Below are positions 8,549 to 64,000 of a DNA stretch of 64,000 bases, piece after piece. Location: contig NHZP01000023.1 in assembly GCA_003313425.1 (NCBI GenBank), positions 988,910-1,052,909 of the forward strand. The letters run 5' to 3'. Both the position numbers and the translations under genes were made by a program. Each line of letters starts with the position of its first letter. The first letter of the stretch is position 1. The DNA is from Pseudopyrenochaeta lycopersici. Taxonomy: Eukaryota; Ascomycota; Dothideomycetes; Pleosporales; Pseudopyrenochaetaceae. Under the pieces are notes generated by a model. It was not told the DNA's origin, did not search any database, and worked only from the letters and a program-made list of their open reading frames with translations.

Positions 8549-10128
8549 TTCCTTTCACTAGAAAGTTGTCAAGTGGTCAGGAGCCTTGCGCTTCTGACCC
8601 ATGTAACTTTACCTTAAGCTGTGGCCACGAGTGGAACGAGAAGCGGAGTGTTAGACTACTTGTAGGCTAGGGCCTCTGCCCCTTGTAAGCCTACAAAAGC
8701 ACGGACTGTGCGGGTCATCTGACTGTTGTGGGCACGTGGGAGACACTCTTGGCCCCACTCCAGCTAAATCTATGATTTAATTGGTCTATGTCTATAGAGT
8801 CATGGAATGTGCATTCTATTGCTTACTAGGGACTAGTATTTCTTGGCAGCGCTCAAGAGAGAGAGGTATATAGGAACAACAGAGGATCTGTTTCTACGGA
8901 GTGTGGCAGTCCCTTGAGGGATCCTTTTTTATTTCTACTTTGCGATGGGGTCGCATACTGGATAGTGTGCTTTTGCGGGGTCCGCTTGCACAACCACCCT
9001 CCTATCTATAGTAGATGGGGTACAGGCAGGATGTCGCTGCCCAGTGTCTGTAGGGACATCCACAGCGTTGAGAGATCACGTGCACAGTGAGTATCTTTCT
9101 CTTCTGACACGCAATCAGTTGGGTACTGTAACTGATAGAGTAGTAGCCCTAGTGGAGCGGCGTGTGTCACTAACTACCTAGGCAGATTTGCCAGGCAGAC
9201 GACATTGGTGGGTAACCAAAGAGAGCGGGCAGCCTCCCCGCGAATGCATTTCGCAGAAACACACGGAGTGTCTTCACCGCTACGGAGAACTCTGTAGACA
9301 GGGAGGGACGCAACAGTCGCTCCTTGTATTCAAGGCAGATACGAACTACTAGGGCGAGACTCTTTGTCTCGTTGTATTTGCGAAGCTCTCTCTAGAGGCA
9401 TTAGACATCGTCTTGCAGAGTATTTTACCCCTTCTCATTCTGTCGTCGGGGCAGAGGGCAGACGCTGTAGAGCTTGATGGAGTATGCTCCATATACTGCT
9501 AGAGAAACCTCCTCAGCAGTGTAGACTGCGGATGTAACGAGTTCGGTTTCTGTAGGCCTTGCAGACGCATAAGGCCCGCGTCAGGGAGGTTTTCCCATTC
9601 CAATGGATTTGATAGAGTTTATCTCAATAGGAAGCGTATGTAGTTGAGTAGGATCAGCAACACAGTAGGAGTAGTACAGCCATAAGGTTATGGAGTAGCA
9701 GTCATGTCTATAGGACAGCTAGATGGTTATAAGAAGACGTGGTCTATCAGAGTCGTATCTAGTAAGAGACAGGTTAAGATGTAGTAACCCAAAAAAAGTA
9801 CATTTGGTAATAGTAAGTACTTTTTGTTTATTTACAGTATTCCAAATTCATTAAAATAAGGATAACCCAAAAACTATAGAATAGTTACTAATGGTACGAT
9901 GTAAGGTTTGTAGATTCGGGAAGAAGAGCAAAGAATGTTGGGTGCGGAGCTCAGTTGTTAAGGGTGTGAGCCCTTCAGATGGAATTTCCAAAAAAAATTT
10001 GCTAAGTCCACAGGGCGTGTGGCTGACAGTCACGTTGGGACAGCGTGGCGCGATGAGCGGACAGGGGGTGGTGTGGCGCGGATTCTGCGCGCACAGACCA
10101 GAAATCAACTTTCGAGTGCTATATATGA
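8549..10128 (+). mobile_element. Segment unit 1 (1580 bp)
   Basis: Starts at the telomere join. Leader hairpin arms AGGAGC/GCTTCT. Same type as unit 35. Carries a broken family gene. 3' module of the common type, short origin loop (CGAGTGCTATATATGA). Confidence 0.9.
8945..9780 (+). pseudogene. Broken member of the WWLTKESG family
   Basis: The conserved context TGCGATGG gives an ATG at 8945, but TAG follows after six codons. Exon 1 remnants, a GTGAGT intron start near 9087 and exon 2 remnants can be followed: WWVTKESG at about 9211-9234, then AKLSLE, SILPLL, and the VDCGC...CRPC cysteine cluster near 9523-9560. At least five in-frame TAGs interrupt exon 2, mostly where relatives have CAG, TGG or similar, and the C-terminal SDAVG region has drifted. 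The same stops recur in unit 35, so the damage predates the duplication. Not expected to make a full protein; the segment may persist by being replicated in trans. Confidence 0.75.
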
Positions 10129-11706
10129 TTCCTTTCACTAGAAAGTTGAGCAAGTGGTCGGCAGCCTTGCGCTGCCAGCCCTTGCAACTTTACCCTAAGC
10201 TTTGCCAACGATTGGAGATCGTAGCGGACGCGTCAAGCTACTTGTAGTTTGGGGGCAAAGACCCCTGTAAGTAAGCCAGAGCACGGATCGTGTGAGTCAG
10301 ATGACGCTGGGTTACACGTGGGAGGCACCCCTGCCCCCACAACGCTCAGTCAGTTGTCTGATTGGTCTATGAATATGGACATAGGGACCTTTGTTGTGCT
10401 CGCCAGTGCGGTGGCACGTGACCATGTAGTGGGGCTGATGGAGTCCGTGCTCGTGTTTAGATTGGCTTTGGAAAAGTCAGCGTAGTCGCGTCAGGTACAT
10501 GCACGATCTGTTTGTGTAGCATGTCTGGTACAAGCAAAGCGGTAAGTCGTAGTGTGGAGCACGTTGTAGTCGTAGTCCTAACGGAGGTTTAGGTTGCGGG
10601 GAATATGCACGTCGCGTTGCGATGTCGGCGATTGGTATATCGCGTTGGCCCGGGAGGGAACCCTCTTACGGAGGATGAGTTCAAGTCGGACTTTGAACGT
10701 GCGCTCAAGAGTGGTATGCGGAGCGTGCACATATCTGGGCCCACCGGATGGGTTGGCAGGGCTGTTGGAGCAGGTCGTCCTGCAACGCGTAAGACTGGGT
10801 CCTCTTCTGCGGCGAGGGTTTTTACGGAGTTCGAGCTGTATGTTGTGCTTCCTGAGTCTGTCGGACCATCGCGGGGTCGCTGTTGGCTTGCGCTCCCTCG
10901 GGAAGGGTGGGCGGTAGCCGAGGAAGTTGGTGGGAAACGGCATGATGCGGATCAGTTTTTCCGTAAGCCATTGCGCGACTGGAAGCGTGCTGGAAAACGT
11001 GTGCGGTGGATAGGACCCGGTCTTCCTTCTGCGGCGCGGAGCAAAGTGAAGGGTGCTGTTGACGGTACTCCACGTGACGATGGTGTCGTGGAAGTGCGCA
11101 AGCCTGATGAATTGCGTAAGTCGGATCAGGTGCGTCCCGCTACAGAGGATGTTTATAGAACACGTCGCAAGCGCGCAGTTATATTGGGTACCGATACCGT
11201 GGAGGGCATTGTTGACATTGTTGGAGATGCATCACGTTTGTGGACCCGGAAGGAGATCGAGGTGGTTGTAGTGTCAACGATTAAGGCCATGGCGGAGGCA
11301 CGTGCTGGTGACTTGGGATTGCGGTAGCAGGCTGTCGTACTTGCTACGCTTACTTCTCTTCTGTCCTCTATGACAGTCTTCATATTTACAAAATTGTTTT
11401 GTCATTGTGCGCAGTCTTACGCTGCGTTGGTACATTTTATGTTATGGTGTGTGTGTGGAGGCACGTTACATGTGTCTGATTCTTTAGGTACTTGTATGAT
11501 ATAACAGCGTGGGTGTTAACCATTTTTTTTGGGTTGGAAACCAAAGGCAAGTCCGACGGAGGGTGGCGAAAAAAGAAGTTGAGGATTGGCCTGTGCGCGA
11601 TTTAGCGCGGTTCTGGAGGTACATGGTCCTCACCCAGAAGTGGGTGGGCGGGAGGTCACTCTCCAGCCACGTCAACTTTCTAGTGTGGCGTTCCGCCTAT
11701 ATATGA
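10129..11706 (+). mobile_element. Segment unit 2 (1578 bp)
   Basis: Leader variant in which the origin 3' arm continues into an extended stem (AAAGTTG-GCAAG with CTTGC-AACTTT), arms GGCAGC/GCTGCC. 3' module of the second type, with the CACCC-agaa-GTGGGTG hairpin near 11632-11650. Same type as unit 34. Confidence 0.9.
10521..11327 (+). CDS. Basic segment protein, 251 aa, function unknown
   Basis: Model: exon 1 10521-10541 (MSGTSKA), intron 10542-10592 (51 nt, GTAAGT, CTAAC at 10578, TAG), exon 2 10593-11327. The splice keeps frame; without it translation can start at ATG 10605 to give 240 aa. The protein is rich in Arg/Lys (clusters near KRHDADQFFRKPLRDWKRAGKR and RTRRKRAV), with a C-terminal amphipathic stretch. 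It is unrelated to the family of the neighbouring segments. A basic, once-per-genome protein is a reasonable place to look for a capsid or DNA-binding protein, but no motif proves it. Near-copy in unit 34 is frameshifted. Confidence 0.7.
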
Positions 11707-13295
11707 TTCCTTTCACTAGAAAGTTGTCAAGTGGTCACCAGCCTTGCGCTCGGGACCACGACGGCTTTACCCTAAGCTTTGCCTGCGACTGGAGGGAGTA
11801 ACGAAGTGTTAAACTACAAGTAGTTTAGAGGTAAAGACCCCGGTAAGCAACACGCAGCACGGACCGTGTGGGTCAGATGACCGCAGGGTTGCCACTCTCT
11901 TTTTCAGATCTTTAGTCTGATTGGTCTATGAACATAGACAGCATGGAGTGGGCAGAACCCTGCCAAGTATGGAATAGTTTAGCTTGGCATTGGCAAGGGT
12001 CTGAGAAGACAGAGATGTATAAGAGAGGCGAGTGCCCTCCATCTCTTCTCACGGGTAGTGAGCGTATCTAAATCTACAGTTTCTCTGTAGTATTTTTCAT
12101 ATCCTTTCCTTAATTTCAACGGGTAGTTGATTGCGATGGAGATGCAAGCCGGATCATGGTCCTGGACAAAGGGTAGCACGCCTAAGTCGGATTCAGATTT
12201 CTTATCTGATTGGTCTATGAAGATAGACCCAGGGACTGCGTTGAAGCTGGATAGCGAGGAGGTGTATACGTTGAAGGCGCAGTTGCACGGTGAGTGCTCT
12301 CTTATCTCTCTATATAAGTTGGGAGATCCCCAACTAATTTGGTCTTGTTCTCTGGGACAGAGTTTGTGAAGCAAGGCACATCAGTCTGGTGCGAGGCGGA
12401 GCCTTCTGGTACTGTCAAGTGGAACCTTGTAAAGGATCAACAGGTTCCTGGCCGCGGTGTATCCGACGAAGACGAGAAAGAGATTTCGCCAGAGTTTTTG
12501 CAACGTTATAGGCACTTTGAGGTTGTTAGTAAGGGCCGACCCTGTGCGAAGGGGTCGCACCTTGTCATCACGTATGCAGGCCACGGGCGTGGACGGACTG
12601 GGTTAGGGATGAGGGAGATTAGTATGTGTGTGCCGTTGACGGACGCAGCGTTTGATTTTCTGGTACAGAGTGTGCTACCGAACGTCTATAAAGTCGTCGA
12701 AGGTTCCAGGTTTAGCGTATTAGTGGTACTATTAGAGGGGTTTGGTGTCATGGATATAACATGCGAATGTGTCTTGAGACCTACTCGTTGTTTGTCTGAT
12801 CAGGCGGCGCTGGAGACTTAGATGGAAGGGATTGTTCGTATGTAGGACAATTATTTTGCACGAAGTGTGTATGTTGTATACTGTACGTTGGGCTGTGAGT
12901 GACAGGTTTTGTACTCTGTATACGTGAAGCGAGTATAGGTTGTTGCTAAGAATTAGCAGTAAAGATGATGATTTTCTCTCGTGTCTGTAGAGAGGGAACT
13001 AGGAATAGTTGTTGTAGCACACATGATATTTGTGTTGCAGTATGTTGCGGCTGTAGGAGCTCAGGGAGCGGGGTGTGTAAACAGAGTCAGTAGATTGAGA
13101 TGTGGAACAACCAAAAACAAAAAACGGTAAGTCCAAGAAAAAAATCGCAAATTTTTTTGGCTATGTCCGATTGTGTGTGGCTGGAGGCGATGCTGAGTCA
13201 CGGTTGCTCGAGAGAGCACGCGCTGGGGGTGTGGCGCGGATTTCGCGCACAGACCCTCCCTCAACTTTCTAGTGTGGCGAAAAGCCTATATATGA
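11707..13295 (+). mobile_element. Segment unit 3 (1589 bp)
   Basis: Same segment as units 8 and 23 from about 11891 onward, but its first about 185 bp (leader arms with the GCTCGGGACC variant) differ clearly from those copies, showing leader exchange. Origin loop at the end carries the GGC-GAAAA-GCC sub-hairpin. Confidence 0.92.
12136..12821 (+). CDS. Divergent WWLTKESG-family protein, 204 aa
   Basis: Exon 1 12136-12289, intron 12290-12360 (71 nt, GTGAGT, CCAACTAAT, CAG), exon 2 12361-12821. The intron is phase 1 at the same place as in the relatives. Exon 2 opens with FVKQGTSVWCEAEPSG and VKWNLVKDQQ, matching the LVEQxVSVTC...WWLTKES region of the family, and keeps the SVLPNVYK segment. The C-terminal half is short: the SDAVG region is missing and only part of the Cys cluster (ITCECVLRPTRC) remains. 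Identical proteins are encoded in units 8 and 23. Role unknown. Confidence 0.75.
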
Positions 13296-14870
13296 TTCCT
13301 TTCACTAGAAAGTTGTCAAGTGGTCAGGAGCCTTGCGCTTCTGATCCTAGACACTTTACACGTATGCGTTGCCTACGACTGGAGGGAGTAGCGAAGCGTT
13401 AGGCTCCTTGGAGACTAGAGGCAAGAGCCCCTGTAAGCAGAGCAGAGCACGGACGTCGCGGGTCAGATGACGCTGCTTTGCACGTGAGGAGCACCCCTGC
13501 CCTCGCTACTCTCTCAATCAGTTGTCTGATTGGTCTATAGCTATAGACGCATGGAATGTGCATTAGGTTGCTCATTAGGGACTAGTGGTCTTGGCATGGT
13601 TCAAGAGCTGGATGTATAAGAGGGGGGGGGGGCCCTCTGCCTCATTTACGGAGTGTGTTCCAGCTCACTCTAAATGACGATGGTGTCGTCAACCGGAGGG
13701 CATATTCGTACGGATTGTGATGGCCGTGTAGGTAGCGTACAGCTCGAGCTTGCTCTGTCGGGGATCGACTGCCTTGTAGAAGGCAAGTTAGGAGAATTTG
13801 TTACATGGAGTGCATCTGATTTAGATTGTTTGCGGAGCCACATGGACAGTAGGCTTTTCTCTCTGTCTATCTTTCAACAGTTGGGGGCTGCAACTGACGG
13901 AGTGGTAGTGTTGGTGAAGCAACGCGTGTCTCTTACGTTTCACCTACAGCCGGATGGCGCGCTGGAGGTATGCCTGACCAAGGAGAGCGGGCAGGCTCCT
14001 CGCCAGTGTTCTGCGCCCAATGTGTGTGGGTGTTATTTTGGAAGTTGTACTTCTGCCGATAATGCCCCGATGGCATTTCTTGTTTGGAAAGCAGACGTTG
14101 TAGGACAGTACAATCAGATGCGGAGCATGGTTGCATTTGCACGTCTTTGCTCGGAAACACTGGAGGTGTTCATCGAAAGCGTATTGCCCTGTGTGTATAC
14201 ACATGGGAGAGATCACGTGCAGGCGGAGGAGGTCGATACGCTCTTTGACGCACTTGATCAAGGGCGATTTTCCAGTAGCGTTGGGTGCGGGTGCAAATTG
14301 CGAGAGCATTGTTTGTCCTGTTTGTCGTTACGTTCTAATCAGCAACGTTTCACGAGATGGGACATGTTTAGTGGGCCATTCCCATGCGGTCCAGATGGCT
14401 GGTTTTCTGGGTACAGCGATGCGGTTGGAATCGTAGAACCGTTGGCGCTTGACTGGCTTACATGCCCGTATACTGCGCTCAATTCTATCTCGCCTCTCGA
14501 GGGTGCACTTAGTAAGTACTCTGTAGACGAGTTGCTCAGTTAAGTATTGTTTAGTATGGACTATTATTGTCAAGCATGATAGGTGCACGATTTCTGTCGG
14601 ACAGACTCTACATGAAACAATTAATTTGTGGTAGTAGTTGGCGGTAGCTAATTTTTGTTTTCAGGTATGGATGGTGGTTATGTACTATGGTATATAGTAA
14701 GGGTGTGAACCCTTAGGATGGAACATCAAATCTGAAGAAAAAATGCGTAAGTCCATTTTGTGTGTGGCTGACAGTCACGCAGGGTCACGTTAGCTGTGGC
14801 GCGGGGAGCGCAGACATGGGTCGTTTTTGGGCACGGGCCCATTCTCTCAACTTTCTTGTGCTATATATGA
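13296..14870 (+). mobile_element. Segment unit 4 (1575 bp)
   Basis: Leader has the GTGAGG/CCTCAC form of the E-box hairpin. Poly-G run at 13623-13632 just after the TATA box. Ends in a short origin loop (CTTGTGCTATATATGA). Confidence 0.9.
13674..14543 (+). CDS. WWLTKESG-family protein, 269 aa spliced or 289 aa unspliced
   Basis: Exon 1 13674-13848, intron 13849-13908 (60 nt, GTAGGC...CAACTGAC...TAG, phase 1), exon 2 13909-14543. The intron is a multiple of three with no stop, so retained message also gives a full protein. An ATG at 13680 matches the usual GATGGTGTCG start better than 13674. Family features: LTKESGQ after a beta-rich start, SVLPCVY, the cysteine cluster VGCGCKLREHCLSC, WFSGYSDAVGIVEP near the end, then a private tail of about 24 residues. 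Expressed from a leader with CCAAT and TATA-like elements. Function unknown. Confidence 0.8.
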   Translation: MTMVSSTGGHIRTDCDGRVGSVQLELALSGIDCLVEGKLGEFVTWSASDLDCLRSHMDSRLFSLSIFQQLGAATDGVVVLVKQRVSLTFHLQPDGALEVCLTKESGQAPRQCSAPNVCGCYFGSCTSADNAPMAFLVWKADVVGQYNQMRSMVAFARLCSETLEVFIESVLPCVYTHGRDHVQAEEVDTLFDALDQGRFSSSVGCGCKLREHCLSCLSLRSNQQRFTRWDMFSGPFPCGPDGWFSGYSDAVGIVEPLALDWLTCPYTALNSISPLEGALSKYSVDELLS

Positions 14871-16443
14871 TTCCTTTCACTAGAAAGTTGTCAAGTGGTC
14901 AGGAGCCTTGCGCTCCTTGACCCCTGACACTTTACACGTATGCGTTGCCACGACTGGAGGGAGTACCGAAGGGTTAAACTAGAATTAGTTTAGAGGCATA
15001 AGCCCCTGTAAGCAGAGCAGAGCACGGACGTGGCGTGTCAGATGACGCTGCTGTGCCGCATTTTCTTTCAATCAGGCTTCTGATTGGGCTATGGACATAG
15101 ACGCAGGGACGGGGCAGCCCATTGCCTGCTAGGGACTAGGTGGTCTTGGCATTGCGCAAGGCAGAGATGTATATAACATGAACAGTGGAGCTGTTGTAAC
15201 GGAGTGTTCTACACAATGTAGTTTTTTTTTTTACGTTGCGGTAGCCGTACTTCCTGGGAAGGATACCATCGTTGGTAGGTCGAACACGTAACGTCACGTG
15301 TGAGTTCCCAAGAGAGAGATGGTTCTCGAAGGGTGTGCAGAGTGTATAGACCCGTTGGTGTCTGGTAGTAAGGCGGAGCCTTTTGTAGGGACAGAAAGCC
15401 AAATTCAAGGGGTGCGGATGCACATTCAACGTATGTGGATGTTCTCTTCCCGAGTTGGGGTCCCCCAACTAACAGTTGTGTAGATCTTGTGGAACAGAAG
15501 ACTTCTGTGACTTGCCATGTGAAGCGGGATGGTGAACAGGTTTGGTGGCTTACCGTCCCACCCAGCGTCAGTTCTGAGGGCTTGGAGAGCTGTGATTGTC
15601 TCAGGCGGGGGCGCATCTGTGGGCCGTTCTCACGGCTTTTGTTGCAGGTGGAGACCGTAAAACCGGATGGCACCCCACGTCGCATGGTTGCGTTTGGGGA
15701 TCTTTCGGTGGAGGCGCTGGATGCGGTTGTAACGGGTGTTTTGCCGCGTCTTGTGCAGCAGGATGGGGCCCTGCTTGGGAACTCAGTCAAGGTGATGGAG
15801 TTTTTTGAGACACGCTTGGCAGGTCTAGGGTCTCCGCAGATATCGGAGGAACCACCATCTCTCAAAAAAATGGCTAAGTCCATTTTCCTTGGTGCCCGTG
15901 GGTTTACGGCGTGTGATCGCTGTGTAGAGAGCGTTGCGCGAGCTTTTGAGGTAGCTTTGGCCGCGGAATTGTCGCCTCCGCTCCCCAACCATACTGTATC
16001 ATTAACACGACGGATGTAGTCTGGCTGTTGTAACGAACAGTGGTAATATTTGTGAGTAGTAGAGAGGATGTTCTTTAGTTATGGATATACAAGGAGGGCG
16101 GTAGCATGTGGAGGATTGTGCGCAATGTTTTTATTTTGTCGCTCTTTTTGTTTTCTTAACTTCTTTTTCTAAGACAAAAGTTGTACGCAGGAATGAGTGC
16201 TGACTGTATTATGTAGGTGTTATTGGATTGTGCGAACAATGCATTATTATTTATACCGAAGCTATATTGTGGGGGGTGTCGACCCTGTTGATGTTCCATC
16301 AATTCTGTCTCAAAATTGGCTAAGTCCGATTCCTGTGTGGCTGGAGGCGATGCTGGGTCACATGGGGGCTGTGGCGCGGGGAGCGCAGACATGGGTTGTG
16401 TTGGGCACGGGCCCCTTCCCTCAACTTTCTTGTGTATATATGA
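14871..16443 (+). mobile_element. Segment unit 5 (1573 bp)
   Basis: Leader arms AGGAGC/GCTCCT. TATA-like TATATAAC at about 15170. A copy of the 3' hairpin module occurs twice: in the normal place (about 16310-16360) and inside the gene (about 15858-15895). Confidence 0.88.
15319..16019 (+). CDS. Chimeric WWLTKESG-family protein, 215 aa
   Basis: Exon 1 15319-15430, intron 15431-15483 (53 nt, GTATGT, CCAACTAAC, TAG), exon 2 15484-16019; the total is in frame. Exon 1 has the PFVGTESQIQGVR motif of the family and exon 2 starts HLVEQKTSVTC and WWLT, but KESG is replaced. MVAFGDLSVEALDAVV and GVLPRL follow. Then the coding frame runs into a sequence that elsewhere is the non-coding 3' hairpin (AAAATGGCTAAGTCCATTTT), read here as KKMAKSIF. 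The Cys cluster is reduced to CDRC and the SDAVG end is gone. This looks like a recombinant that captured intergenic sequence. Confidence 0.72.
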
Positions 16444-18016
16444 TTCCTTTCACTAGAAAGTTGTCAAGTGGTCAGGAGCCTTGTGCTCGGGACCACGACG
16501 GCTTTACATCTAAGCAGGGCCTCGAGTGGAACGAGAAGCGAAGCGTTAAACCACCTGGGGTTTAGGGCCTCTGCCCCCTGTAAGCGCTAGCCTTTTTGTC
16601 ACGTGGAGGCGGGAACACATGGAGTGGGCAGTATGTCTCTTTCTACGGAGTAGTGTATCTTGGCGGAGCTTGAGGTAGGTAGTATTTATATGCGCGCTCT
16701 GGCCGATATGTAGCGCGCTATCGTGGAGCGATATTATGGCGGAGCCTACAGTAGAGACGTGCGATATTTCTACGGTGGGACCGTCGTCCAGGCGGACATC
16801 TTTTGCGTCTTTGTTTTCGTGTAGTACGCAAGGAAGTGCGTCGAGCGTAGTCGATGACCTCCCGGATGGGTGTGGGGAAAGGGAAGCTTTCGCGTTGAGG
16901 GTCAACGTTGTTCTTGTAACGTGGTCACAGAGTCGTCTGGAGGACGCGTCCGAATTTTACAATCTTCTTCAGGAGCGGATGCCTCCTGGTACGGAGATTT
17001 ACGGTTGTCAAGAGCGCCATGAGGATGGGAAGCCTCATTATCACGCAGTGTTTCGGTTCACGCGTCGGACGAATTGGGTGGATGCACACCAACATTTTCG
17101 AATTTATCTGTCTGATGGCACAGTGGATACAGAGGCTATTCGGTTCTCGGTGCCTCGCCCGTATCAGCGGGAGTCTGATTTTTTGGAAAACACACAGAAT
17201 TACTGTTTTAAGTATGATGATTCGGTGTTTTTTGGGACGAGGATCGAGTCACTCAGTAGTTCTGAGTCTCGGAAGCGCAAGTTCGCTGAGGTGCTGGTGG
17301 AACCTGATTACATTAAAGCGAAACGGATGTTGATGGAACTGGATCCTATGGGATTTATCAAGTTTTATAACGCGTACTCGTCCTATCTGGCTAACGAGAA
17401 GAAAGGCACGCCTGGACGAGGGTGGGTAGACTCTGGGGAACCCCTGAAGCAATGGCGTGTCCCGGTCGCCATGGAGGATTGGCGGAAAAGTTACATTGGG
17501 GGGTCATATAAGGGTAGACCTGTCCCCCTCATTCTTGTTGGTCCATCGAGGCTAGGAAAGACAGAATGGGCTTTGCGTGCAGGGCCCAAGCCCATGGCCA
17601 TGTCCAATCAGTGGAACCTTGGTAATTATGACCAGGATGCGTCGCATCTCGTGTTAAACGACATCGATTTCAGCAATTTTGGGTCTGGTAAGTACCGGTA
17701 TTGGCGAGAAATACTTGGTGGGCAGGCTTGTATTGATGCGCACGATCGGTATACGAAAACACGGAATTTGAGTTGGGGATTTCCAGTCATTGTAACGTGC
17801 AATGCAGATAATGACCCTCGGAAAGTTCCTGACATTGCGGCGTATCTGAAGCATGCGCCTTGTGTTGTGGTTGAGTTGGCGGATCTACTGTATGTAGATG
17901 ACGATCTAGCGTAGATAGATAGAATGAAAAATGGCTATGTCCATTTTCGTGGTGGCGGTGCGGGTCGCGCACAGGCCAGAACTCAACTTTTCTAGTGTGG
18001 CGCAGCCTATATATGA
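16444..18016 (+). mobile_element. Segment unit 6, Rep segment (1573 bp)
   Basis: The only Rep-bearing unit of 35. Its leader is shortened: the GGTC-atct-GACC, CAATCAG/CTGATTG and GTCTATG/CATAGAC hairpins, and so the CCAAT box, are absent, making room for the 1.18-kb gene. The same shortened leader (GCGCTAGCCTTTTTGTCACGTGG) is seen in unit 12. Confidence 0.95.
16736..17914 (+). CDS. Replication-associated protein Rep, 392 aa
   Basis: Initiates rolling-circle replication by nicking the origin loop, then unwinds DNA. Visible motifs: HUH endonuclease motif I VLVTWSQ (residues 59-65), motif II PHYHAVF (100-106), motif III NYCFKYD with catalytic Tyr156 and Lys159; SF3 helicase Walker A GPSRLGKT (269-276), Walker B HLVLNDIDF (304-312), motif C VIVTCNAD (351-358). 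This order and the YCFKY form resemble the geminivirus/genomovirus side of CRESS Reps; exact placement needs a tree. The frame is intact and unspliced, starts at the first ATG after TATTTATATG, and carries a Ser/Thr-rich N-terminal extension of about 50 residues. Every other segment lacks Rep, so this one must serve them all. Confidence 0.97.
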   Translation: MAEPTVETCDISTVGPSSRRTSFASLFSCSTQGSASSVVDDLPDGCGEREAFALRVNVVLVTWSQSRLEDASEFYNLLQERMPPGTEIYGCQERHEDGKPHYHAVFRFTRRTNWVDAHQHFRIYLSDGTVDTEAIRFSVPRPYQRESDFLENTQNYCFKYDDSVFFGTRIESLSSSESRKRKFAEVLVEPDYIKAKRMLMELDPMGFIKFYNAYSSYLANEKKGTPGRGWVDSGEPLKQWRVPVAMEDWRKSYIGGSYKGRPVPLILVGPSRLGKTEWALRAGPKPMAMSNQWNLGNYDQDASHLVLNDIDFSNFGSGKYRYWREILGGQACIDAHDRYTKTRNLSWGFPVIVTCNADNDPRKVPDIAAYLKHAPCVVVELADLLYVDDDLA

Positions 18017-54321: not shown

Positions 54322-55894
54322 TTCCTTTCACTAGAAAGTTGTCAAGTGGTCGAGGAGCCCCGTGCTCCTTGACCCCTGACACTTTACATGTAAGCAGGGC
54401 CAACGACTGGAAGGAGTAGCGAAGCGGTAGACTACTTGTAGGCTAGGGCCGCTGCACTCTTAAGTAACCCGGCGCACGGACGTAGCGCAAGATCATCTGA
54501 TCTCTGGGTTACACGTGGGAGGCACTCTTGCCCCCACTCCACTCAGATTCTTCGTCTGATTGGTCTATGGCGATAGACACAGGGAGGGAGCACTTTGTTG
54601 CCTACTAGGGACTAGTTTCTCTTGGCGAAGAATATTCTAGGTAGATACTTGGTTGTGACGGGTAGTCATGTATGGAGGTAGTAGTATATATAAGTAAGGC
54701 CGGTCATGGCCGACTCTTTCATTACCGACGCCCTCACGGAGGCAGGACGTTGGTGGGTTTGCCTCGAGTGTCTTTTGTGGATGCAAAGGGCTGTTGCACT
54801 AGCGTATGCTTAATAGTTATAGTATGGAAACTATGAGCGCGGATGTTGCTCTTTGCATTGTTGAGCATGTAGGGACCCTCACTGAGCTTGCGTTGCTGCG
54901 ACGTGTTTGTCGCGGCTGGAGGTCATCTGTTACGAAAGGGTTTAGCGCATGGGTGCGGGCACAGCGGAGCGATATGCCTTCAGAGGTCTTCTCTTTGGCG
55001 GAGCTCGCTCTTGTGAGGGATCACGTGGACAGTGAGTTAGACGGAGTTGTGCAGTGTAGCTGCGGTATTGTTGATCCCTCACGCAGTTCTTGTGTCCCAT
55101 GGAGTGGTACTGGAGTGCGACGTTTCTCGGCCATGGAGAGCGTGGCGGCTTATATGGAATGGTGCGCAGAGGGCGCTGCTTTGTGGCAGTATGTGGGGTT
55201 GTAACTGCCTCTTGCGTGTAAAGCCTTCTTTACCAGCAGCAGGCGAAGGCTATCTTGTCCTGCGAAGGGTTCCTTGGCCATGTTGGAGCCATGCTCAAAG
55301 CTGTGATGTGTGTATCACTATGCTATGTACGAAGTCGTTGGATGCGTTGGTAGAGACGATTATTCCCTTCTTTTGGGAATCCCGTGGGAGAGAGGTCCCG
55401 CAGGATATCGTTCTTTGTGGGGACTGGAGGGTTACCTTTGTCTGGCGCGATAAGCTCTATCATGTGTTACATGAGGTTGTGTTTGGCTGTCTGCGTAGGC
55501 GGCATTCCTGTAGTGGTACTGTGTTATTACGTGGTACGTAGTACACTTACGACAGAGTTGTTAAGGTAATAGTATATTTGTAAACGGTAGTTGAGGTTTG
55601 TATAGTTACTGATCTATTGTATAGGTAAACGCGGTTTTGATATACGTTGCGGTAGCAGTTGTAGTAGTAGACTGTATTGCTTTGTTCTGTCATTTTGTAA
55701 TAGCAGTATTTTTTTGCAGCAGGACTGGAATTTACTAAGTCGGACACGGTGTGGCGAAAAAAGAAGTTGAGGATTGGCCTGTGCGCGATTTAGCGCAGTT
55801 CCGGAGGTACATGGTGCTCACCCAGAAGTGGGTGGGCGGGAGGTCACACTCCAGCCACAGTCAACATTTCTAGTGAGGCGCAGCCTATATATGA
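54322..55894 (+). mobile_element. Segment unit 30 (1573 bp)
   Basis: Leader with GATC-atct-GATC hairpin. TATA (TATATAAG) near 54687. 3' module of the second type. Confidence 0.9.
54806..55541 (+). CDS. F-box-like protein fused to the WWLTKESG family, 226 aa
   Basis: Exon 1 54806-55031, intron 55032-55086 (55 nt, GTGAGT to GCAG, phase 1), exon 2 55087-55541. Exon 1 residues about 11-52 read SADVALCIVEHV...LALLRRVCRGWRSSV, the pattern of an F-box (Leu/Val-rich helix, then LLRxVCRxWR), which in known proteins binds Skp1 in SCF ubiquitin ligases. Exon 1 ends LVRDHVDS, like other family exon 1s. Exon 2 opens LVSHGVVLECDV and keeps a CNC motif, GYLVLRRV and LDALVETIIPFF but lacks the SDAVG end. 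In nanoviruses the Clink protein also has an F-box; here the resemblance is functional inference. ATGs at 54824 and 54833 are alternative starts. Confidence 0.72.
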
Positions 55895-57463
55895 TTCCTT
55901 TCACTAGAAAGTTGTCAAGTGGTCAGGAGCCTTGCGCTCCTTACCCTTGTCACTTTACACGTAAGCGGAGCCCATGACTGGAGGGAGTAACGAAGTGTTA
56001 AACCACTTGGGGTTTAGGGCCTCTGCACTTAGTAAGCAAGCCGAAGCACGGACGTAGCGCGAGATCATCTGATCTGTGGGTTGCCACATTTGTTAAATCT
56101 AAGATTTGATTGGTCTATGGATATAGATTCATGGAAGGGGCACAACACTGCCTGCTATGTAGTAGTTTCTCTTGGCGGTGCCATAGATAGAGGTATATAA
56201 TAACAACAGAGGATCTGTGTTCATGGATATGTTTTACAATATGTAGTTTTTTTACTACACATGCGATGGAGTCGCGCTCTGGACAGGGCACTATGGCGGG
56301 AGCCAGTGCTACCATAAGCTTCTTATCTATTGTGCGTCAGTTACAGGAAGGGAGTTCCTGTTCATTGTCTGTAGAGACAGCTGTGGAACTGCAACGCGTG
56401 AGAGATCACGTGCACAGTCAGTGTTTTTCTTTTCCCCTAGACACACGATAGGTTGGCCGATGCCCAACTAACGTCATCACAGTGCTGGTGGAGCAGCATG
56501 TCTCTCTCATGGCGTATGTTGATGCGTCGGGAAGACAAGCTTGGTCGATTACCAAGGAGAGCGGACGCCTTCCCCGTCAATGTACCGAACAACAACGCAT
56601 GGAGTGTTTTGAGGATTACCAGGAACTCAGTGCCTCGGGGGGTACCCAGCAGGCGCTTCTTGTCCTCAAGGTGGATACGAGTTGGAATGGCGTGGTGCGG
56701 AGCCGTGTTATATTTGCGAAGCTCTCCCTAGAGACACTGGATGTTGTCGTACAGCGGGTACTGCCTAGAATTAGATTGCCTGGTGGGCAAGTTGTAGATG
56801 CTGTAAGCATGGAGGGACTAATGCAGTTTTTAAGCATTGGGTACTATAGTACGCGGGTGGATTGCGCGTGTACTTTGTACAGAATCTGTCAGCCTTGTGT
56901 GTGTGCGCACCGGATTTCATCGAGGTTTCTTCGTTTGAATGGGTTTTCTGGGGTAAGGCCATTCGGGAAGTGTTACTGGTTTACTGGGATCAGTGACGCT
57001 GTGGGAGCAGTACTACCGTCTGGCAGGAACTGGTTGAGTTGCACTCGTTCTTGGTAAGAATATCGTGATGGTAAGATTACCTAGTCCCTGTGTCCATGTA
57101 ATGGTAATAATATATCTCAGTAGGAGATGGGTGCCTAGCATATTTATGGAGATAATTTGTTTGGGTATATTTGGTAATTGTAAGTAACGATTGTGTATCG
57201 AATTTTTTATTTTTTGTTAAAATAAAGTCATTGTATACTGTATGAATCTGTGCTAACTACAGTAGTATGAGTAGTAAAGAATTTGTATGGCGGAGGTCAG
57301 TCAGTAAGGGTGGGAGCCCTCAGGATGGAACACCATCTCTCAAAAATTGGCTATGTCCAATTTTGTTGTGGCTGGAGGGCACGTTGGGTCAGCTGGGTGT
57401 GGCGCGGATTTCGCGCACAGACCCTCCCTCAACTTTCTAGTGTGGCGTTTTGCCTATATATGA
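55895..57463 (+). mobile_element. Segment unit 31 (1569 bp)
   Basis: Leader arms AGGAGC/GCTCCT. TATA (TATATAAT) near 56194 with AACAG/CTGTG. CAT-ggat-ATG mini-hairpin at 56224-56233 replaces CAC-gga-GTG. Confidence 0.9.
56266..57057 (+). CDS. WWLTKESG-family protein, 241 aa
   Basis: Exon 1 56266-56416 (SGQGTMAGASAT, close to units 7 and 27), intron 56417-56482 (66 nt, GTCAGT, CCAACTAAC, CAG, phase 1), exon 2 56483-57057. Exon 2: LVEQHVSLMAYV, AWSITKESGRLPRQC, MECFEDY, QALLVLKVD, AKLSLETLDVVVQRVLP, VDCACTLYRICQPC, GVRPFGKCYWFTGISDAVG. The 5' splice site GTCAGT is atypical but the position and phase match the relatives. Confidence 0.82.
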
Positions 57464-59041
57464 TTCCTTTCACTAGAAAGTTGTCAAGTGGTCACCAGCC
57501 TTGCGCTGGAGACCCTGGACACTTTACACGTATGCGTTGCCTATGAGTGGAACGAATACCGAAGGGTTAAACTCTTTAGAGTTTAGAGGCATAAGCCCCT
57601 GTAAGCAAAGCAGAACATGGATATGTTGTCGGGTGACTCATGTTTTGCCACTCTCGTTTTTTCTATGGAATAGCGTGGCTTGGCATTTGCTAAGGTCTGG
57701 ATAGATATATAAGGCTTCTTCCCGCCTGCGGATGGCTGGTTTTGCGTAGCATTTTTTTCAGTGTGCGTTGAGCGGAGCGTGCACAACCATCACGCATTGG
57801 CGGATATCGCCATCAGGGGATCTGATGCGTACACGGAGTAGGTTGTTGCCTAGAAGCACTGGCAGTGCTGGTCCTGGAGGGTTGTTGATTCAAGAGCTTT
57901 TGGAGAGCGCGCGCAACGGAGTATGCGTTGGTCTGTCACTACAACGCGCTCTTCCATCTCAGCCTACTGGCGTCGCGCTGGCGTTTCGACCTGTTGGGGA
58001 GAACATTTTGTTTGTTACGAGGTATGCGCCGAGTACGTATGGAGTAACGTCTTTTGTAGAAGCATGTGGAGAGAGGCATGGATGCTCTCTCGGATCGCTA
58101 ATGGGTAACAGTACTTGCTGAGCACAATGTGTCTGTTACTTGCGAAGCGTTTCCAGGGTATAAGAGTAGCTGGTGGCTCACGAAGGAAAGTGGTCGACTG
58201 CCTCGCGGATGCGGCGTACGTAAAGGATGTGATTGTCAGGGGGTTAGGTCATGGAGTGCTTCCCCTTCTGGTGGATACATGGTGTTGAAGGTGTTTGGTA
58301 AGAACACTTTGTTGCCTGAGTCATGCGATGTGCTTGTATCGAGGCTTTCCCAGGATGCTGTCTGGAGGGCACGAGAGGTTTTCTGGTCTATATGCGGGAG
58401 GCATTTAGGGTACGTTCGGTTGAAGATGTTGCGTCAGCGTGGGCGTTCCCGTGGTGCGTTGCCACTGAGCACGGAGATAAGCATTGACGATGTCCATATA
58501 GTCGCAGAAGGCTTTGTATTGGCATCATCCTTTGAAGGCGTTTGGCCGTTTGGGGTACAACACTGGTGGAGCGGTGTTACGGATGCTGTGGGAGAAGTAA
58601 ACTCTTCGCGGAGTCTATGGTTGAGGTGTTCCTCAGAATGATATCTTTTTGTCTTCTTTATGGTAAAAGTTTTTTATGGTAATGTATGTGCGACTGGTAG
58701 GTCTATATGTTTATTGTGCGACGTACATGTATAAGTAGTTTGCTTATTTCATGTCGTGTTTATCTTTTTCGTACTACATGCTTTGCTGTTTTACCTATTT
58801 TACATAGTAAGTATGTCTTGTTTGTATAATATTACTTTGTAATTTTGCGGAGCCTTCGTCATGAAGGGTGTGGGCGCCCTTGGGATGGAACATCAAATCT
58901 TCAAAAAAAAATCCCAAGTTTTTTTGGCTAAGTCCAATTTCACAGTGGCTGGAGGCCATGCAGAGTCACGTTGGCTGTGGCGCAGATCGTGCGCACAGGC
59001 CCCGACTCAACTTTCTAGTGTGGCGTTTTGCCTATATATGA
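57464..59041 (+). mobile_element. Segment unit 32 (1578 bp)
   Basis: AACAT-ggat-ATGTT leader hairpin as in unit 9, but the CCAAT hairpin is absent. TATA (ATATATAAG) near 57707. Confidence 0.9.
57825..58641 (+). CDS. WWLTKESG-family protein, 245 aa
   Basis: Exon 1 57825-58032, intron 58033-58111 (79 nt, GTACGT, CGCTAATG, CAG, phase 1), exon 2 58112-58641. Exon 2: LAEHNVSVTC, SWWLTKESGRLPRGC, GCDC, GGYMVLKV, SCDVLVSRLSQDAV, then a diverged middle without the CxCx5Cx2C cluster, and GVWPFGVQHWWSGVTDAVGEV. Exon 1 is private (PGGLLIQELLESARNGV). The exon 1 end is the least certain point: other GT sites nearby are out of phase. Confidence 0.72.
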
Positions 59042-60617
59042 TTCCTTTCACTAGAAAGTTGTCAAGTGGTCGGCAGCCTCGCGCTGCCTACCCTGGACAC
59101 TTTACATCGTAAGCTTTGCCTGTGACTGGAGGGAACAACGAAGTGTTAAACTAGAATTAGTTTTAGAGGCAATGCACTAGTAAGCCCGCTAGCGCACGGA
59201 CGTAGCGCGAGATCATCTGATCGTAGTGGGCACGTGGGTGGCACTCCTGCCCCCACTCCGTCCTCAATCAGTACTTTGATTGGGCTATGAACATGGACGC
59301 AGGACTAGGCACTCCGTTGCCTGCTAGGGACTAGACTATCTCGGCGGTGCGCAAGACAGAGAGGTATAAGAGGGGAGCCCCCTCCCCCGCGCATGGAGTG
59401 TGTTTGGGTACCTCTTTCTTTAGTAGCATTTTTTGCTTACTGGTGTACCCAGTGACCTAGTTGCGGATAGCGTGGACGGGGAGCTTCTAACGTTAGTTAT
59501 TTCCCGGTGGGGATTCTATTGCGTGTCTACGCTTGCACGGTGTGCGTTGTAGGGTGTCTCTTTGGTCAGCTCCGGGAAGGTGCGTGTATAATGAGCGTCC
59601 CTATCGGTGTTGCTACGTTTGCACCGTTGAAGCCGGGCACGTTTGGCGGCTTGCCTCCTGTTAGCGGGAGCCGTACATTCGAGGTTTAGCAGTGGTCCGG
59701 TTACGGCGACGAAGAATGCTGTTGTATTGCAGGGCAACCTGTGACGTGGTTTCTGCCGCCCCCATGGAGATGGTGTGAAGGGTAAACGAGGTGCTTTGCC
59801 TGCGGAGGTCGGCGATCTTGTCACGAAGTGTACGGTTCTAGAGGAAGAATTGCGGTCGCTTGCGTTGGCCGTGCGATTCTGATGCGGATGCAGTAGTAGG
59901 GGATGTGCGAGAGCAAGCAAGGCAGCTAGCAGACAGTGGGTTGGATGCAAAATGTGCAGATGGTGTTCTGTACCATGCGGCGCACTTGCAATTTCTTACG
60001 GAAGCGGTGGGCACGTTTCGCAAAGTTACGCGTAGCGAGTGTTCGAATCATGCATGGCAGCGGAAGCGTAAGCCTGAGGAGGTATCCGCTGAGGAAGAGT
60101 ATGATGTTTGTCCGAGTTGTTCGTGGACATGTGGTTGTACTTTGGGGGAGATGCTTTCTCTCGCAACTTGTAAAGGACTGTTAGGGCTCTGGGATGCGGA
60201 GCGAGTGCTGGTTATGATGCAACGGGCCCGAACCGGGTTGTGTTGCAATGTATAGGATGGGTACTGTCCTCTGTAAGGGTTATACTATGATGAAATCCGT
60301 TCTTCGTGTACGTATTGTGCATTTGTTTAAACTGTGTATTTTTTGTGTTTATAGTTTATATTTGTTATGATTTAGGCTACGGAGATTTGTTTGTTAGCTG
60401 TAAGTGAATGCATTCACGTTATTATAATGAAGTTTACTAATAGTAACAGGATATTTTTTGGGGAAGCATTAGTTCCGTCCCCAAATTTTTTGGCTAAGTC
60501 CGATTTCCCTGTGGCTGGAGGCCATGCAGAGTCAGACGGGGGCTGTGGCGCGTTTTGCGCACAGACGGGTTGTGATGGGCACGGGCCCATTCCGTCAACT
60601 TTCTTGTGTATATATGA
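59042..60617 (+). mobile_element. Segment unit 33 (1576 bp)
   Basis: Leader arms GGCAGC/GCTGCC. TATA (GTATAAG) near 59363. Short origin loop. Confidence 0.88.
59591..60255 (+). pseudogene. Segment gene with apparent frameshifts, unknown product
   Basis: Three frames in turn look coding: ATG 59591 (MSVPIGVATFAPLKPGTFGG), a middle part around 59770-59880 (GALPAEVGDLVTKC, LEEELRSLALAV, likely coiled coil), and 59881-60255 (VREQARQLADSGLDAKC ... CPSCSWTCGCTLGEM ... CCNV). No splice sites of the usual kind join them. Units 34 and 35, just to the right, differ from their left-hand copies by many one-base indels, so sequencing errors here are as likely as real mutations. The CPSCSWTCGC cluster recalls the family's cysteine motif. 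Confidence 0.5.
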
Positions 60618-62198
60618 TTCCTTTCACTAGAAAGTTGAGCAAGTGGTCGGCAGCCTTGCGCTGCCAGCCCTTGCAACTTTACCCTAAGCTTTGCCAACGA
60701 TTGGAGATCGTAAGCGGGACGCGTCAAGCTACTTGTAGTTTGGGGGCAAAGACCCTGTAAGTAAGCCAGAGCACGGATCGTGTGAGTCAGATGACGCTGG
60801 GTTACACGTGGGAGGCACCCCTGCCCCCACAACGCTCAGTCAGTTGTCTGATTGGTCTATGAATATGGACATAGGGACCTTTGTTGTGCTCGCCAGTGCG
60901 GTGGCACGTGACCATGTAGTGGGCTGATGGAGTCCGTGCTCGTGTTTAGATTGGCTTTGGAAAAGTCAGCGTAGTCGCGTCAAGGTACATGCACGATCTG
61001 TTTGTGTAGCATGTCTGGTACAAGCAAAGCGGTAAGTCGTAGTGTGGAGCACACGTTGTAGTCGTAGTCCTAACGGAGGTTTAGGTTGCGGGGAATATGC
61101 ACGTCGCGTTGCGATGTCGGCGATTGGTATATCGCGTTGGCCCGGGAGGGAACCCTCTTACGGAGGATGAGTTCAAGTCGGACTTTGAACGTGCGCTCAA
61201 GAGTGGTATGCGGAGCGTGCACATATCTGGGCCCACCGGATGGGTTGGCAGGGCTGTTGGAGCAGGTCGTCCTGCAACGCGTAAGACTGGGTCCTCTTCT
61301 GCGGCGAGGGTTTTTACGGAGTTCGAGCTGTATGTTGTGCTTCCTGAGTCTGTCGGGACCATCGCGGGGTCGCTGTTGGCTTGCGCTCCCTCGGGAAGGG
61401 TGGGCGGTAGCCGAGGAAGTTGGTGGGAAACGGCATGATGCGGATCAGTTTTTCCGTAAGCCATTGCGCGACTGGAAGCGTGCTGGAAAACGTGTGCGGT
61501 GGATAGGACCCGGTCTTCCTTCTGCGGCGCGGAGCAAAGTGAAGGGTGCTGTTGACGGTACTCCACGTGACGATGGTGTCGTGGAAGTGCGCAAGCCTGA
61601 TGAATTGCGTAAGTCGGATCAGGTGCGTCCCGCTACAGAGGATGTTTATAGAACACGTCGCAAGCGCGCAGTTATATTGGGTACCGATACCGTGGAGGGC
61701 ATTGTTGACATTGTTGGAGATGCATCACGTTTGTGGACCCGGAAGGAGATCGAGGTGGTTGTAGTGTCAACGATTAAGGCCATGGCGGAGGCACGTGCTG
61801 GTGACTTGGGATTGCGGTAGCAGGCTGTCGTACTTGCTACGCTTACTTCTCTTCTGTCCTCTATGACAGTCTTCATATTTACAAAATTGTTTTGTCATTG
61901 TGCGCAGTCTTACGCTGCGTTGGTACATTTTATGTTATGGTGTGTGTGTGGAGGCACGTTACATGTGTCTGATTCTTTAGGTACTTGTATGATATAACAG
62001 CGTGGGTGTTAACCTTTTTTTTGGGTTGGAAACCAAAGGCAAGTCCGACGGAGGGTGGCGAAAAAAGAAGTTGAGGATTGGCCTGTGCGCGATTTAGCGC
62101 GGTTCTGGAGGTACATGGTCCTCACCCAGAAGTGGGTGGGCGGGAGGTCACTCTCCAGCCACGTCAACTTTCTAGTGTGGCGTTCCGCCTATATATGA
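60618..62198 (+). mobile_element. Segment unit 34 (1581 bp), near-copy of unit 2
   Basis: Differs from unit 2 by several one- or two-base indels (for example GTAAGCGGGACG for GTAGCGGACG, and an extra AC in GAGCACACG), few or no substitutions. Confidence 0.9.
61011..61820 (+). pseudogene. Near-copy of the unit 2 basic protein gene, frameshifted
   Basis: Exon 1 61011-61031, intron 61032-61084, exon 2 from 61085. An extra G near 61358 (TCGGGACC against TCGGACC in unit 2) shifts the frame after about residue 100; the frame ends at 61438, while the remainder continues in another frame to 61820. The pattern of homopolymer indels in this part of the window suggests read error rather than decay. Confidence 0.65.
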
Positions 62199-63769
62199 TT
62201 CCTTTCACTAGAAAGTTGTCAAGTGGTCAGGAGCCTTGCGCTTCTGACCCATGTAACTTTACCTTAAGCTGTGGCCACGAGTGGAACGAGAAGCGGAGTG
62301 TTAGACTACTTGTAGCTAGGGCCTCTGCCCCTTGTAAGCCTACAAAAGCACGGACTGTGCGGGTCATCTGACTGTTGTGGGCACGTGGGAGACACTCTTG
62401 GCCCCACTCCAGCTAAATCTATGATTTAATTGGTCTATGTCTATAGAGTCATGGAATGTGCATTCTATTGCTTACTAGGGACTAGTATTTCTTGGCAGCG
62501 CTCAAGAGAGAGAGGTATATAGGAACAACAGAGGATCTGTTTCTACGGAGTGTGGCAGTCCCTTGAGGGATCCTTTTTTATTTCTACTTTGCGATGGGGT
62601 CGCATACTGGATAGTGTGCTTTTGCGGGGTCCGCTTGCACAACCACCCTCCTATCTATAGTAGATGGGGTACAGGCAGGATGTCGCTGCCCAGTGTCTGT
62701 AGGGACATCCACAGCGTTGAGAGATCACGTGCACAGTGAGTATCTTTCTCTTCTGACACGCAATCAGTTGGTACTGTAACTGATAGAGTAGTAGCCCTAG
62801 TGGAGCGGCGTGTGTCACTAACTACCTAGGCAGATTTGCCAGGCAGACGACATTGGTGGGTAACCAAAGAGAGCGGGCAGCCTCCCCGCGAATGCATTTC
62901 GCAGAAACACACGGAGTGTCTTCACCGCTACGGAGAACTCTGTAGACAGGGAGGGACGCAACAGTCGCTCCTTGTATTCAAGGCAGATACGAACTACTAG
63001 GGCGAGACTCTTTGTCTCGTTGTATTGCGAAGCTCTCTCTAGAGGCATTAGACATCGTCTTGCAGAGTATTTTACCCCTTCTCATTCTGTCGTCGGGGCA
63101 GAGGGCAGACGCTGTAGAGCTTGATGGAGTATGCTCCATATACTGCTAGAGAAACCTCCTCAGCAGTGTAGACTGCGGATGTAACGAGTTCGGTTTCTGT
63201 AGGCCTTGCAGACGCATAAGGCCCGCGTCAGGGAGGTTTTCCCATTCCAATGGATTTGATAGAGTTTATCTCAATAGGAAGCGTATGTAGTTGAGTAGGA
63301 TCAGCAACACAGTAGGAGTAGTACAGCCATAAGGTTATGGAGTAGCAGTCATGTCTATAGGACAGCTAGATGGTTAAGAAGACGTGGTCTATCAGAGTCG
63401 TATCTAGTAAGAGACAGGTTAAGATGTAGTAACCCAAAAAAAGTACATTTGGTAATAGTAAGTACTTTTTGTTATTTACAGTATTCCAAATTCATTAAAA
63501 TAAGGATAACCCAAAAACTATAGAATAGTTACTAATGGTACGATGTAAGGTTTGTAGATTCGGGAAGAAGCAAAGAATGTTGGGTGCGGAGCTCAGTTGT
63601 TAAGGGTGTGAGCCCTTCAGATGGAATTTTCCAAAAAAATTTGCTAAGTCCACAGGGCGTGTGGCTGACAGTCACGTTGGGACAGCGTGGCGCGATGAGC
63701 GGACAGGGGTGGTGTGGCGCGGATTCTGCGCGCACAGACCAGAAATCAACTTTCGAGTGCTATATATGA
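62199..63769 (+). mobile_element. Segment unit 35 (1571 bp), near-copy of unit 1
   Basis: Shares unit 1's in-frame stops and differs by about eight small deletions. Confidence 0.9.
62594..63420 (+). pseudogene. Broken WWLTKESG-family gene (near-copy of unit 1)
   Basis: Same start context (TGCGATGG), early TAG, WWVTKESG region and Cys cluster as at 8945-9780, with the same stop codons plus small indels. Confidence 0.7.
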
Positions 63770-64000
63770 TTCCTTTCACTAGAAAGTTGTCAAGTGGTCA
63801 GGAGCCTTGCGCTCCTTGACCCCTGACACTTTACCTTAAGGTTTGCCCACGACTGGAGGGAGTAGCGAAGTGTTTAGTCTCTTTAGAGGCTAGAGGCAAA
63901 GACCCTTGTAAGCCTACAAAAGCACGGACAGTGCGGGTCATCTGACTGTTGTGGGCACGTGGGAGGCACCCCTGCCCCCACTCCAGCTAAATCTATGATT
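63770..64000 (+). mobile_element. Segment unit 36, partial (leader only)
   Basis: The first about 130 bp differ from units 1 and 35 (arms AGGAGC/GCTCCT) while the stretch from about 63915 to the window end closely matches them, with paired changes in the E-box hairpin. Probably the same segment type with another leader. Confidence 0.8.

Follow-up and report, generated by a model that had tools for sequence, protein, structure and literature searches.

Telomeric arrays of many unit types with a shared origin hairpin and a CRESS-type Rep in the fungus Pseudopyrenochaeta lycopersici

The array and its replication genes

We analysed a stretch of 64,000 nucleotides (nt) from the fungus Pseudopyrenochaeta lycopersici (assembly GCA_003313425.1, contig NHZP01000023.1, here C23, positions 988910-1052909), hereafter the window, whose right edge is the end of the contig. 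From 8549 to 64000 it consists of 35 complete head-to-tail units on the plus strand (u01-u35, 8549..63769) and a partial unit of 231 nt that the contig end interrupts (u36, 63770..64000, plus strand). Cutting at the shared start gives unit sizes of 1562-1601 nt, the largest of which counts a 24-nt telomere island, and clustering sorts the 35 units into 26 types, the same number at 65, 70, 80, 90, 95 and 98% identity. The sequence TATATATGATTCC has 33 exact occurrences in the window and none in any of 100 shuffles. Units start with TTCCTTTCACTAGAAAGTTG and end with TATATATGA, except that one ends with CTTATATGA and one end is followed by the telomere island. A first-pass annotation had described this array as at least 26 segment types of nearly constant length, with one Rep segment and one common origin hairpin, from an undescribed divided CRESS (circular Rep-encoding single-stranded DNA) virus or a helper virus with satellites. 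Its counts of 35 complete units and 26 types were reproduced when the units were split and clustered. The array does lie in a fungus-like eukaryotic genome, where the telomeric TTAGGG occurs in a single register as stubs, as islands and at real ends.

The unit joint at 10106..10148 (plus strand) is an example of the putative origin, and other joints are similar. The arms CAACTTTCxAGTG and CACTAGAAAGTTG are inverted repeats of the two unit ends and flank TATGATT^CC, with TATGATTCC in the loop. Four of five such pieces fold far better than shuffles (z -3.7 to -7.8), which bears out a common, geminivirus-like origin hairpin; the fifth, with a telomere island inside, gives z -0.7. Eragrovirus and Becurtovirus are described as using TAAGATTCC (PMC10653810, accessible text), which TATGATTCC matches at 8 of 9 positions. 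Because the geminivirus nonanucleotide is one base off TATGATTCC, a nick is independently expected at TT^CC, the same point at which units meet telomere repeats. On both grounds, GATT^CC is a more probable nick site than the GA^TTCC first proposed. As far as sequence can tell, this is a CRESS-type stem-loop origin with a nonanucleotide and a predicted nick after position 7 (TATGATT^CC).

The sole Rep unit in the window is u06 (type t00, 16444..18016, plus strand), and of the types seen, one has a full Rep, in line with the single Rep segment of the first-pass annotation. Its intact open reading frame (ORF; 16736..17914, plus strand) encodes 392 amino acids (aa) with motifs of an HUH endonuclease and a superfamily-3 helicase: HYHAV, YCxK, GPSRLGKT, LNDID and TCN, which we take to represent the HUH, Walker A/B and motif C elements. 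Most of these positions are conserved in an alignment of 11 relatives, some of them partial. A profile of this Rep hits nuclease domains of Reps with solved structures (E 2e-5), and Pfam matches lie below the curated cut-offs. Fourteen relatives were found at E up to 1e-3, none with a virus name; they include a 52% identical protein on a 1600-nt contig of Pyrenophora tritici-repentis (P0004) and proteins from P. seminiperda (241,788-nt contig, P0005) and Colletotrichum sojae (1422-nt contig, P0015). With its HUH nuclease and superfamily-3 helicase, the predicted protein is a CRESS-type, geminivirus-like Rep, and other fungi, such as that with the 1600-nt Pyrenophora contig, may hold similar elements. 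A second HUH protein, 46% identical over Rep residues 50-171 and without the helicase, has a unit type of its own, seen in three copies (L091, L092, L093). It carries a cysteine-rich tail that weakly resembles a UBR zinc finger.

Another unit type, as at C119:21706-23298 (L092, L057), encodes a RAD52/22 domain, with matches in Pfam at E 8e-28 and to structures of human RAD52 at E 6e-20. The genome has 13 places with this ORF, every one of them on an array-bearing contig, and the apparent host RAD52 lies in two pieces on contig C12. A homolog search gave two weak matches within length limits that leave out cellular RAD52 proteins of more than about 490 aa. The first-pass annotation overlooked this unit, the genome-wide scale of the system and the logic of its joining to telomeres. 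We give slightly better than even odds to the reading that the units form a many-component CRESS-type rolling-circle replicon that lives at telomeres, with Rep acting in trans and arrays growing by Rep-joined strands and recombination.

Arrays at chromosome ends

The array of this window stands as first described, but it is not a lone array: the 62.7-Mb assembly has 893 exact unit starts, 366 of them forward and 527 reverse (about 1.4 Mb), and the reversed pattern, as a control, is absent. Among 100 listed starts, 96 lie in runs reaching a contig end and four on the array contig C61, where further unit genes spread up to 292 kb of its 301 kb. The listed runs have minus-strand units at left contig ends and plus-strand units at right ones, so that units point outward; where such runs reach the tip, the plus strand of the unit runs toward it, like the G strand.

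We read 75 complete units, from the window and further loci, against the 893 unit starts in the assembly. They fall into 46 types and measure 1561-1599 nt without islands; the Chao1 estimate is about 114 types, based on 43 types in 60 units from the window and stretches taken in contig order. Unit starts are alike over about 200 nt across the 46 types, the first 17 nt being identical by construction because units were cut at that exact motif, and diverged starts would be missed. Copies of one type are nearly clonal: 28 comparisons covering 44,158 bases (one recombinant copy left out) gave 4 substitutions in all, with none in 26 of the comparisons, and 95 gap columns that may be sequencing indels. 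Nine full copies of the Rep unit show no difference at all; a tenth (C166) has 8 gap columns and a broken frame, and a further broken copy lies on C99. In 12 of 13 multi-copy types the copies keep their own ends, bar gap columns and a few substitutions. The recombinant copy, u03 (11707..13295, plus strand), has the body of the u08/u23 type with a different 5' shared region, its differences being confined to nt 45-179. Given the near-zero divergence within types, old decayed repeats were rejected as an explanation, and the unit indices (near 1.06 and 1.06) give no sign of decay of the repeat-induced point mutation type. From this clonality we infer that the units derive from a clonal free pool.

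The joints between units and telomere repeats follow a single pattern. Of 113 unit starts read, many of them at loci fetched via the junction pattern, which biases the proportions, 79 stand directly after ...TATATGATT, 15 after an island, 19 after TTAGGG behind other DNA, and none after anything else. The islands comprise one to five TTAGGG and themselves follow a unit end; that of the window, (TTAGGG)4 at 30610..30633 (plus strand), sits exactly at the joint of the identical units u14 and u15. At all 19 array starts seen, a short TTAGGG stub precedes the first unit, as does AGGG(TTAGGG)2TT at the boundary of subtelomere and u01 (8533..8550, plus strand); the starts on C4, C5, C10, C18 and the right end of C23 were found by the unit pattern or through the window, not by the junction pattern. 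Genome-wide, 32 sites match TTAGGGTTAGGG-TTCC and 17 match a unit end followed by TTAGGGTTAGGG. Thirty of the former were viewed, 17 of them behind non-unit DNA and 13 behind a unit end; a further array start was found on each of C4 and C5, and a single-repeat island on each of C5 and C131. The register is TT^CC at 33 of 33 distinct junctions with 0-10 free bases permitted, the letters being fixed by the pattern for 32 of them; the C4 junction has one extra G.

In the opposite direction, from unit to telomere, 17 of 20 joins read exactly GATT-AGGG, and the other three are at the contig tips C50, C92 and C131, where the first telomere repeat is irregular and its letters were not read. Telomere lies directly behind a unit end at eight contig tips (C18, C50, C77, C92, C99, C118, C119 and C131). 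At C5:1-690 (L006) the terminal unit is cut at nt 596 and followed by telomere repeats, and on C65 an internal unit end was cut at TATATA, healed and followed by more units. A telomerase (TERT) domain is present in the genome. These eroded, telomere-healed and unit-extended tips indicate that array tips behave as chromosome ends. One unit type can also follow an island with different upstream neighbours (C23 and C101 versus C119; C65 versus C92), which argues for independent joinings and reuse from a pool.

We then considered the order of the units, using 171 typed units and including 146 of the 147 scored places of the protein family KESG, described below. Direct neighbours include one repeated ordered pair among 35 (shuffle mean 1.40) and three identical neighbours among 35 (shuffle mean 1.79), so few that the arrays are unlikely to be multimers of a single circle, though the pairs two units apart and the shared 3-kb joints given below do recur. 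Within the window, identical neighbours number 2 of 34 (mean 0.57, P 0.10) and there is one repeated pair (mean 0.14, P 0.13). Among 111 neighbour pairs read, at loci biased to Rep and junctions, 100 are different. Neighbours that mostly differ might also be expected of an assembly or library artefact made from free circles, and single-base indels on some contigs and small contigs that may be redundant point the same way. Such an origin is highly improbable, in view of the head-to-tail orientation, the single register of the telomere stubs at the start of 19 arrays and the arrays on the megabase contigs C4, C5, C10, C18 and C23. Most neighbourhoods being unique is what drawing from a pool predicts, and the blocks that do recur indicate that blocks are also copied between ends.

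Several observations weigh against a telomeric replicon extended by Rep. Forty-three of the 893 exact starts are not direct joints, in contrast to 850 that are; 33 of the 43 have at least two telomere repeats, three have one, and up to seven are unchecked. At its left end C17 has plain telomere, 20 repeats or more, and lacks an exact unit motif. For units two positions apart, 6 repeated ordered pairs were counted where 1.17 would be expected (P 0.0005). Two islands, each taken together with the unit on either side, show no difference across 3022 bases, one between C23 and C101 and the other between C81 and C119 (L035/L052, L043/L057), and the units next to both Rep units of C166 are the same as on C61; C166, like C136 and C155, is a small contig that may be a redundant assembly piece. 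Even without Rep, this register could arise from telomere processing and a TT microhomology of 2 bases, and a pre-made mixed concatemer could be added in fewer steps, islands being found at a minority of joints.

These repeats and shared blocks count in favour of growth by recombination, in which double-stranded circles enter via homologous shared ends, or one end copies another by break-induced replication, aided by RAD52. The RAD52 ORFs on array contigs and a recombinant unit that differs in its shared 5' region only would fit this too. We nevertheless regard recombination as an unlikely sole route: copies of 12 of the 13 multi-copy types retain the ends of their type, repeats are not in excess among direct neighbours, and the fixed register against telomere repeats is left unexplained. 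Block copying did lower our confidence in the Rep-driven telomeric replicon by a small step, and it keeps a slight advantage over even odds.

Other genes of the units

The first-pass annotation held that coding sequence between the shared ends is mostly unrelated. At the protein level this is wrong, and 26 unrelated viral genes were rejected: a paralogous family, which we call KESG after a conserved stretch, is encoded by 26 of the 46 types read and by 16 of the 26 window types, and the other 10 window types have no member. In the window, all on the plus strand, members include a full-length ORF in u16 (32592..33365), an ORF in u04 (13674..14540) and main exons in u07 (18611..19213), u12 (26437..27048), u13 (28038..28706), u26 (48551..49162) and u31 (56452..57054), the last with a TATA-like box near 56194 upstream. 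Candidate places in the genome number 626, of which 147 were scored, and seven related proteins were found. Members and relatives gave no Pfam match when scanned, and a family profile gave no match in the PDB. Thirteen members give 78 pairs, and in the 20 closest of these the ratio of nonsynonymous to synonymous substitution rates (dN/dS) is 0.32-0.53, as under purifying selection. In 8 pairs the ratio of the corresponding proportions of differences (pN/pS) was compared between frames, and the true frame gave the lowest value each time. Of the 46 types, 24 have a TATA box at nt 231-340, compared with 3 of 138 control windows. Unit genes therefore look like ordinary nuclear genes.

The selection on KESG bears on a further alternative, an ordinary subtelomeric repeat family that has lost its free phase and been homogenised by gene conversion. 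In its favour, subtelomeric repeats are common in fungi. This account is nonetheless very unlikely given the purifying selection, the 46 discrete types and a number of types that is unchanged from 65 to 98% identity, and it sits poorly with near-zero divergence within types, mostly non-repeating neighbours and nine identical Rep units.

Three further ORFs or units stand apart from KESG or beside it. An ORF of u09 (21925..22167, plus strand; u24 is of the same type) weakly matches the C-terminal domain of replication protein A (RPA; PF08784, E 2e-4, 22.4 bits against a cut-off of 22.6); a PDB search gave no confirmation, and it is a lead only. RPA is a partner of RAD52, and a single-strand toolkit of RAD52 and an RPA-like protein on separate units is conceivable from these matches. 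In u30, a weak F-box-like ORF (54803..55201, plus strand; E 8e-4, below the curated Pfam cut-off) lies upstream of and overlaps a KESG-family exon; two further suspected exons and three relatives gave no Pfam match to an F-box. Units u20 and u21 (38541..41696, plus strand) are near-identical and lie in tandem; Pfam gave no match for their 384-codon ORF, and they contain an internal repeat of 29 bp. The window contains no Rfam family at the gathering threshold and no tRNA.

No capsid was recognised by Pfam among the main ORFs of 23 of the 46 types, over half of the estimated types being unread, and a Gemini_coat profile found no match in the genome, where its control was silent too. Searches of IMG/VR with Rep, a Rep-family profile, three relatives, one KESG relative and the origin motif found no relative within the limited reach of short exact patterns and tblastn, and a tblastn search of phage records, of similarly limited reach, found none either. 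These results bear on the possibility of an encapsidated multipartite mycovirus, or a helper virus with satellites, whose telomere arrays are by-products of circle integration. The CRESS Rep, the shared origin and the clonal types would suit such a virus. So would the narrow range of 1561-1599 nt in the 75 units, as under a packaging limit, the 52% identical Rep on a 1600-nt Pyrenophora tritici-repentis contig, and the existence of a tetrasegmented fungal virus with 1.7-kb segments, BcssDV1 (PMC10731770, accessible text). With no capsid and no viral relatives found in these searches, and with a telomere anatomy that seems too regular and widespread for a by-product, we think a packaged mycovirus doubtful, though a serious competitor to the telomeric replicon. 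Of the first-pass reading, then, the CRESS Rep and the shared origin stand and no capsid was recognised in the types scanned; the idea of 26 segments of a divided virus is weakened in that a single protein family, in diverged paralogous forms, accounts for most types, and a helper with a large satellite cloud fits better. A multipartite virus is unproven. The predicted Rep and origin support the assignment as a CRESS DNA element, and the first-pass reading as a whole is partly supported.

Two observations concern the subtelomere to the left of the array. Between 4900 and 8535 of the window, the plus strand has only 5% C, with a strong excess of G and A and degenerate AAGTAG-like repeats. At 3760-4831, a 165-bp tandem repeat of 6.5 copies has one open frame, which encodes RGRGRGGRG-rich repeats.

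Related systems and a proposed cycle

Nanoviruses with their alphasatellites carry one gene per small unit, with a shared stem-loop and Rep acting in trans, and the nanovirus protein Clink is an F-box protein. The array units resemble them in their one-gene layout at small size, shared stem-loop, presumed trans Rep and weak F-box-like ORF. Nanoviruses differ in having about 6-8 segments, plant hosts and an AGTATT/AC-type origin, and we know of no nanovirus arrays at chromosome ends. A replication review covers the nanovirus comparison (PMC10653810, accessible part). Botrytis cinerea ssDNA virus 1 (BcssDV1), which is tetrasegmented and genomovirus-like, shares a fungal host, common regions and one Rep segment with the array; its segments are about 1.7 kb and its stem-loop origin also has TT before the nick, TACTCTT^CA (PMC10731770). 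It differs in having four segments that include a capsid and another nonanucleotide, compared with 46 types read here (about 114 by Chao1), no recognised capsid and telomeric arrays; the word telomere is absent from the accessible text of that paper (PMC10731770).

Among elements of fungal telomeres, the retrotransposons MoTeR (PMC7367193) and FoTeR (PMC12857005) likewise form arrays in or at telomeres, and MoTeR integration is described as leaving interstitial telomere tracts (PMC7367193). As far as the accessible parts of these papers go, both copy themselves by reverse transcriptase, whereas here a rolling-circle Rep is carried on a unit. Pfam recognised no reverse transcriptase among the main ORFs of 23 of the 46 types, and the telomeric location with interstitial tracts is a property in common with MoTeR and FoTeR, not a sign of membership. 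A geminivirus-like transposon of Tuber melanosporum also has a geminivirus-like Rep amplified in a fungal genome, but that element is interspersed, with transposase ORFs and terminal inverted repeats of 37 bp, and neither telomer nor tandem occurs as a term in the accessible text (PMC3198968). Roll-and-spread in Kluyveromyces lactis (PMC3486848, accessible text) is similar in its recombinational telomere growth, and here, too, blocks can spread between ends; our arrays differ in their many unit types and mostly non-repeating neighbourhoods.

A literature search found no CRESS arrays in telomeres, subscription papers and preprints being mostly outside its coverage. We know of no Rep-driven array of many components at telomeres, nor of any multipartite virus that approaches this number of unit types. 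The components are of known kinds (a CRESS Rep, telomeric mobile elements, satellites).

Rep proteins of the HUH kind cut and join DNA, and the circles they close are normally their own. In these arrays, the anatomy points to telomeric 3' ends as the joining partner of Rep. The orientation and register lead us to infer that Rep can join a 5'-linked strand to a telomeric 3' end, and that Rep, acting at TATGATT^CC, is most likely what attaches units to the 3' ends of chromosomes. The GGGTT end of the telomere resembles the natural partner, GATT. Linkage of Rep to the 5' end and a joining activity of Rep have been described (PMC10653810, accessible text).

In the cycle that we propose, one unit type would supply Rep, which would replicate all units in trans from the shared hairpin origin. 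Rep would nick the plus strand at TATGATT^CC and remain attached to the 5' end. The circle would not be closed on its own ...GATT 3' end; Rep would join the strand to the 3'-OH of the G-rich chromosome overhang, ...GGGTT, and host fill-in would then make the unit double-stranded. The new chromosome 3' end, ...GATT-OH, could accept another unit, so that the joint again forms a complete origin, or alternatively be extended by telomerase with AGGGTT. Repeated rounds would yield mixed arrays with occasional telomere islands, and recombination between chromosome ends would then copy some unit blocks. As every direct joint forms an intact origin, units may also be released from the array again, which would make it a store. 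Our guess for the RAD52 carried on units is that it may take part in this cycle by annealing or repairing strands.

Tentatively, and with less than even confidence, we extend this proposal to a machine derived from a single-stranded DNA virus that builds chromosome ends. It would comprise about a hundred trans-replicated units with a RAD52 of their own, a fast-diversifying protein family and perhaps an RPA-like protein, and would amount to a second, mobile telomere-extension system beside telomerase, in which the chromosome tips serve as the genome library. If the proposed cycle is true, chromosomes would have a further route to lengthen, beside telomerase and retrotransposons, and a many-component virus-like replicon would keep its parts together by storing units with intact origins on chromosome tips. 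Why there are so many unit types, and what the unit-borne RAD52 does, would thereby become testable questions.

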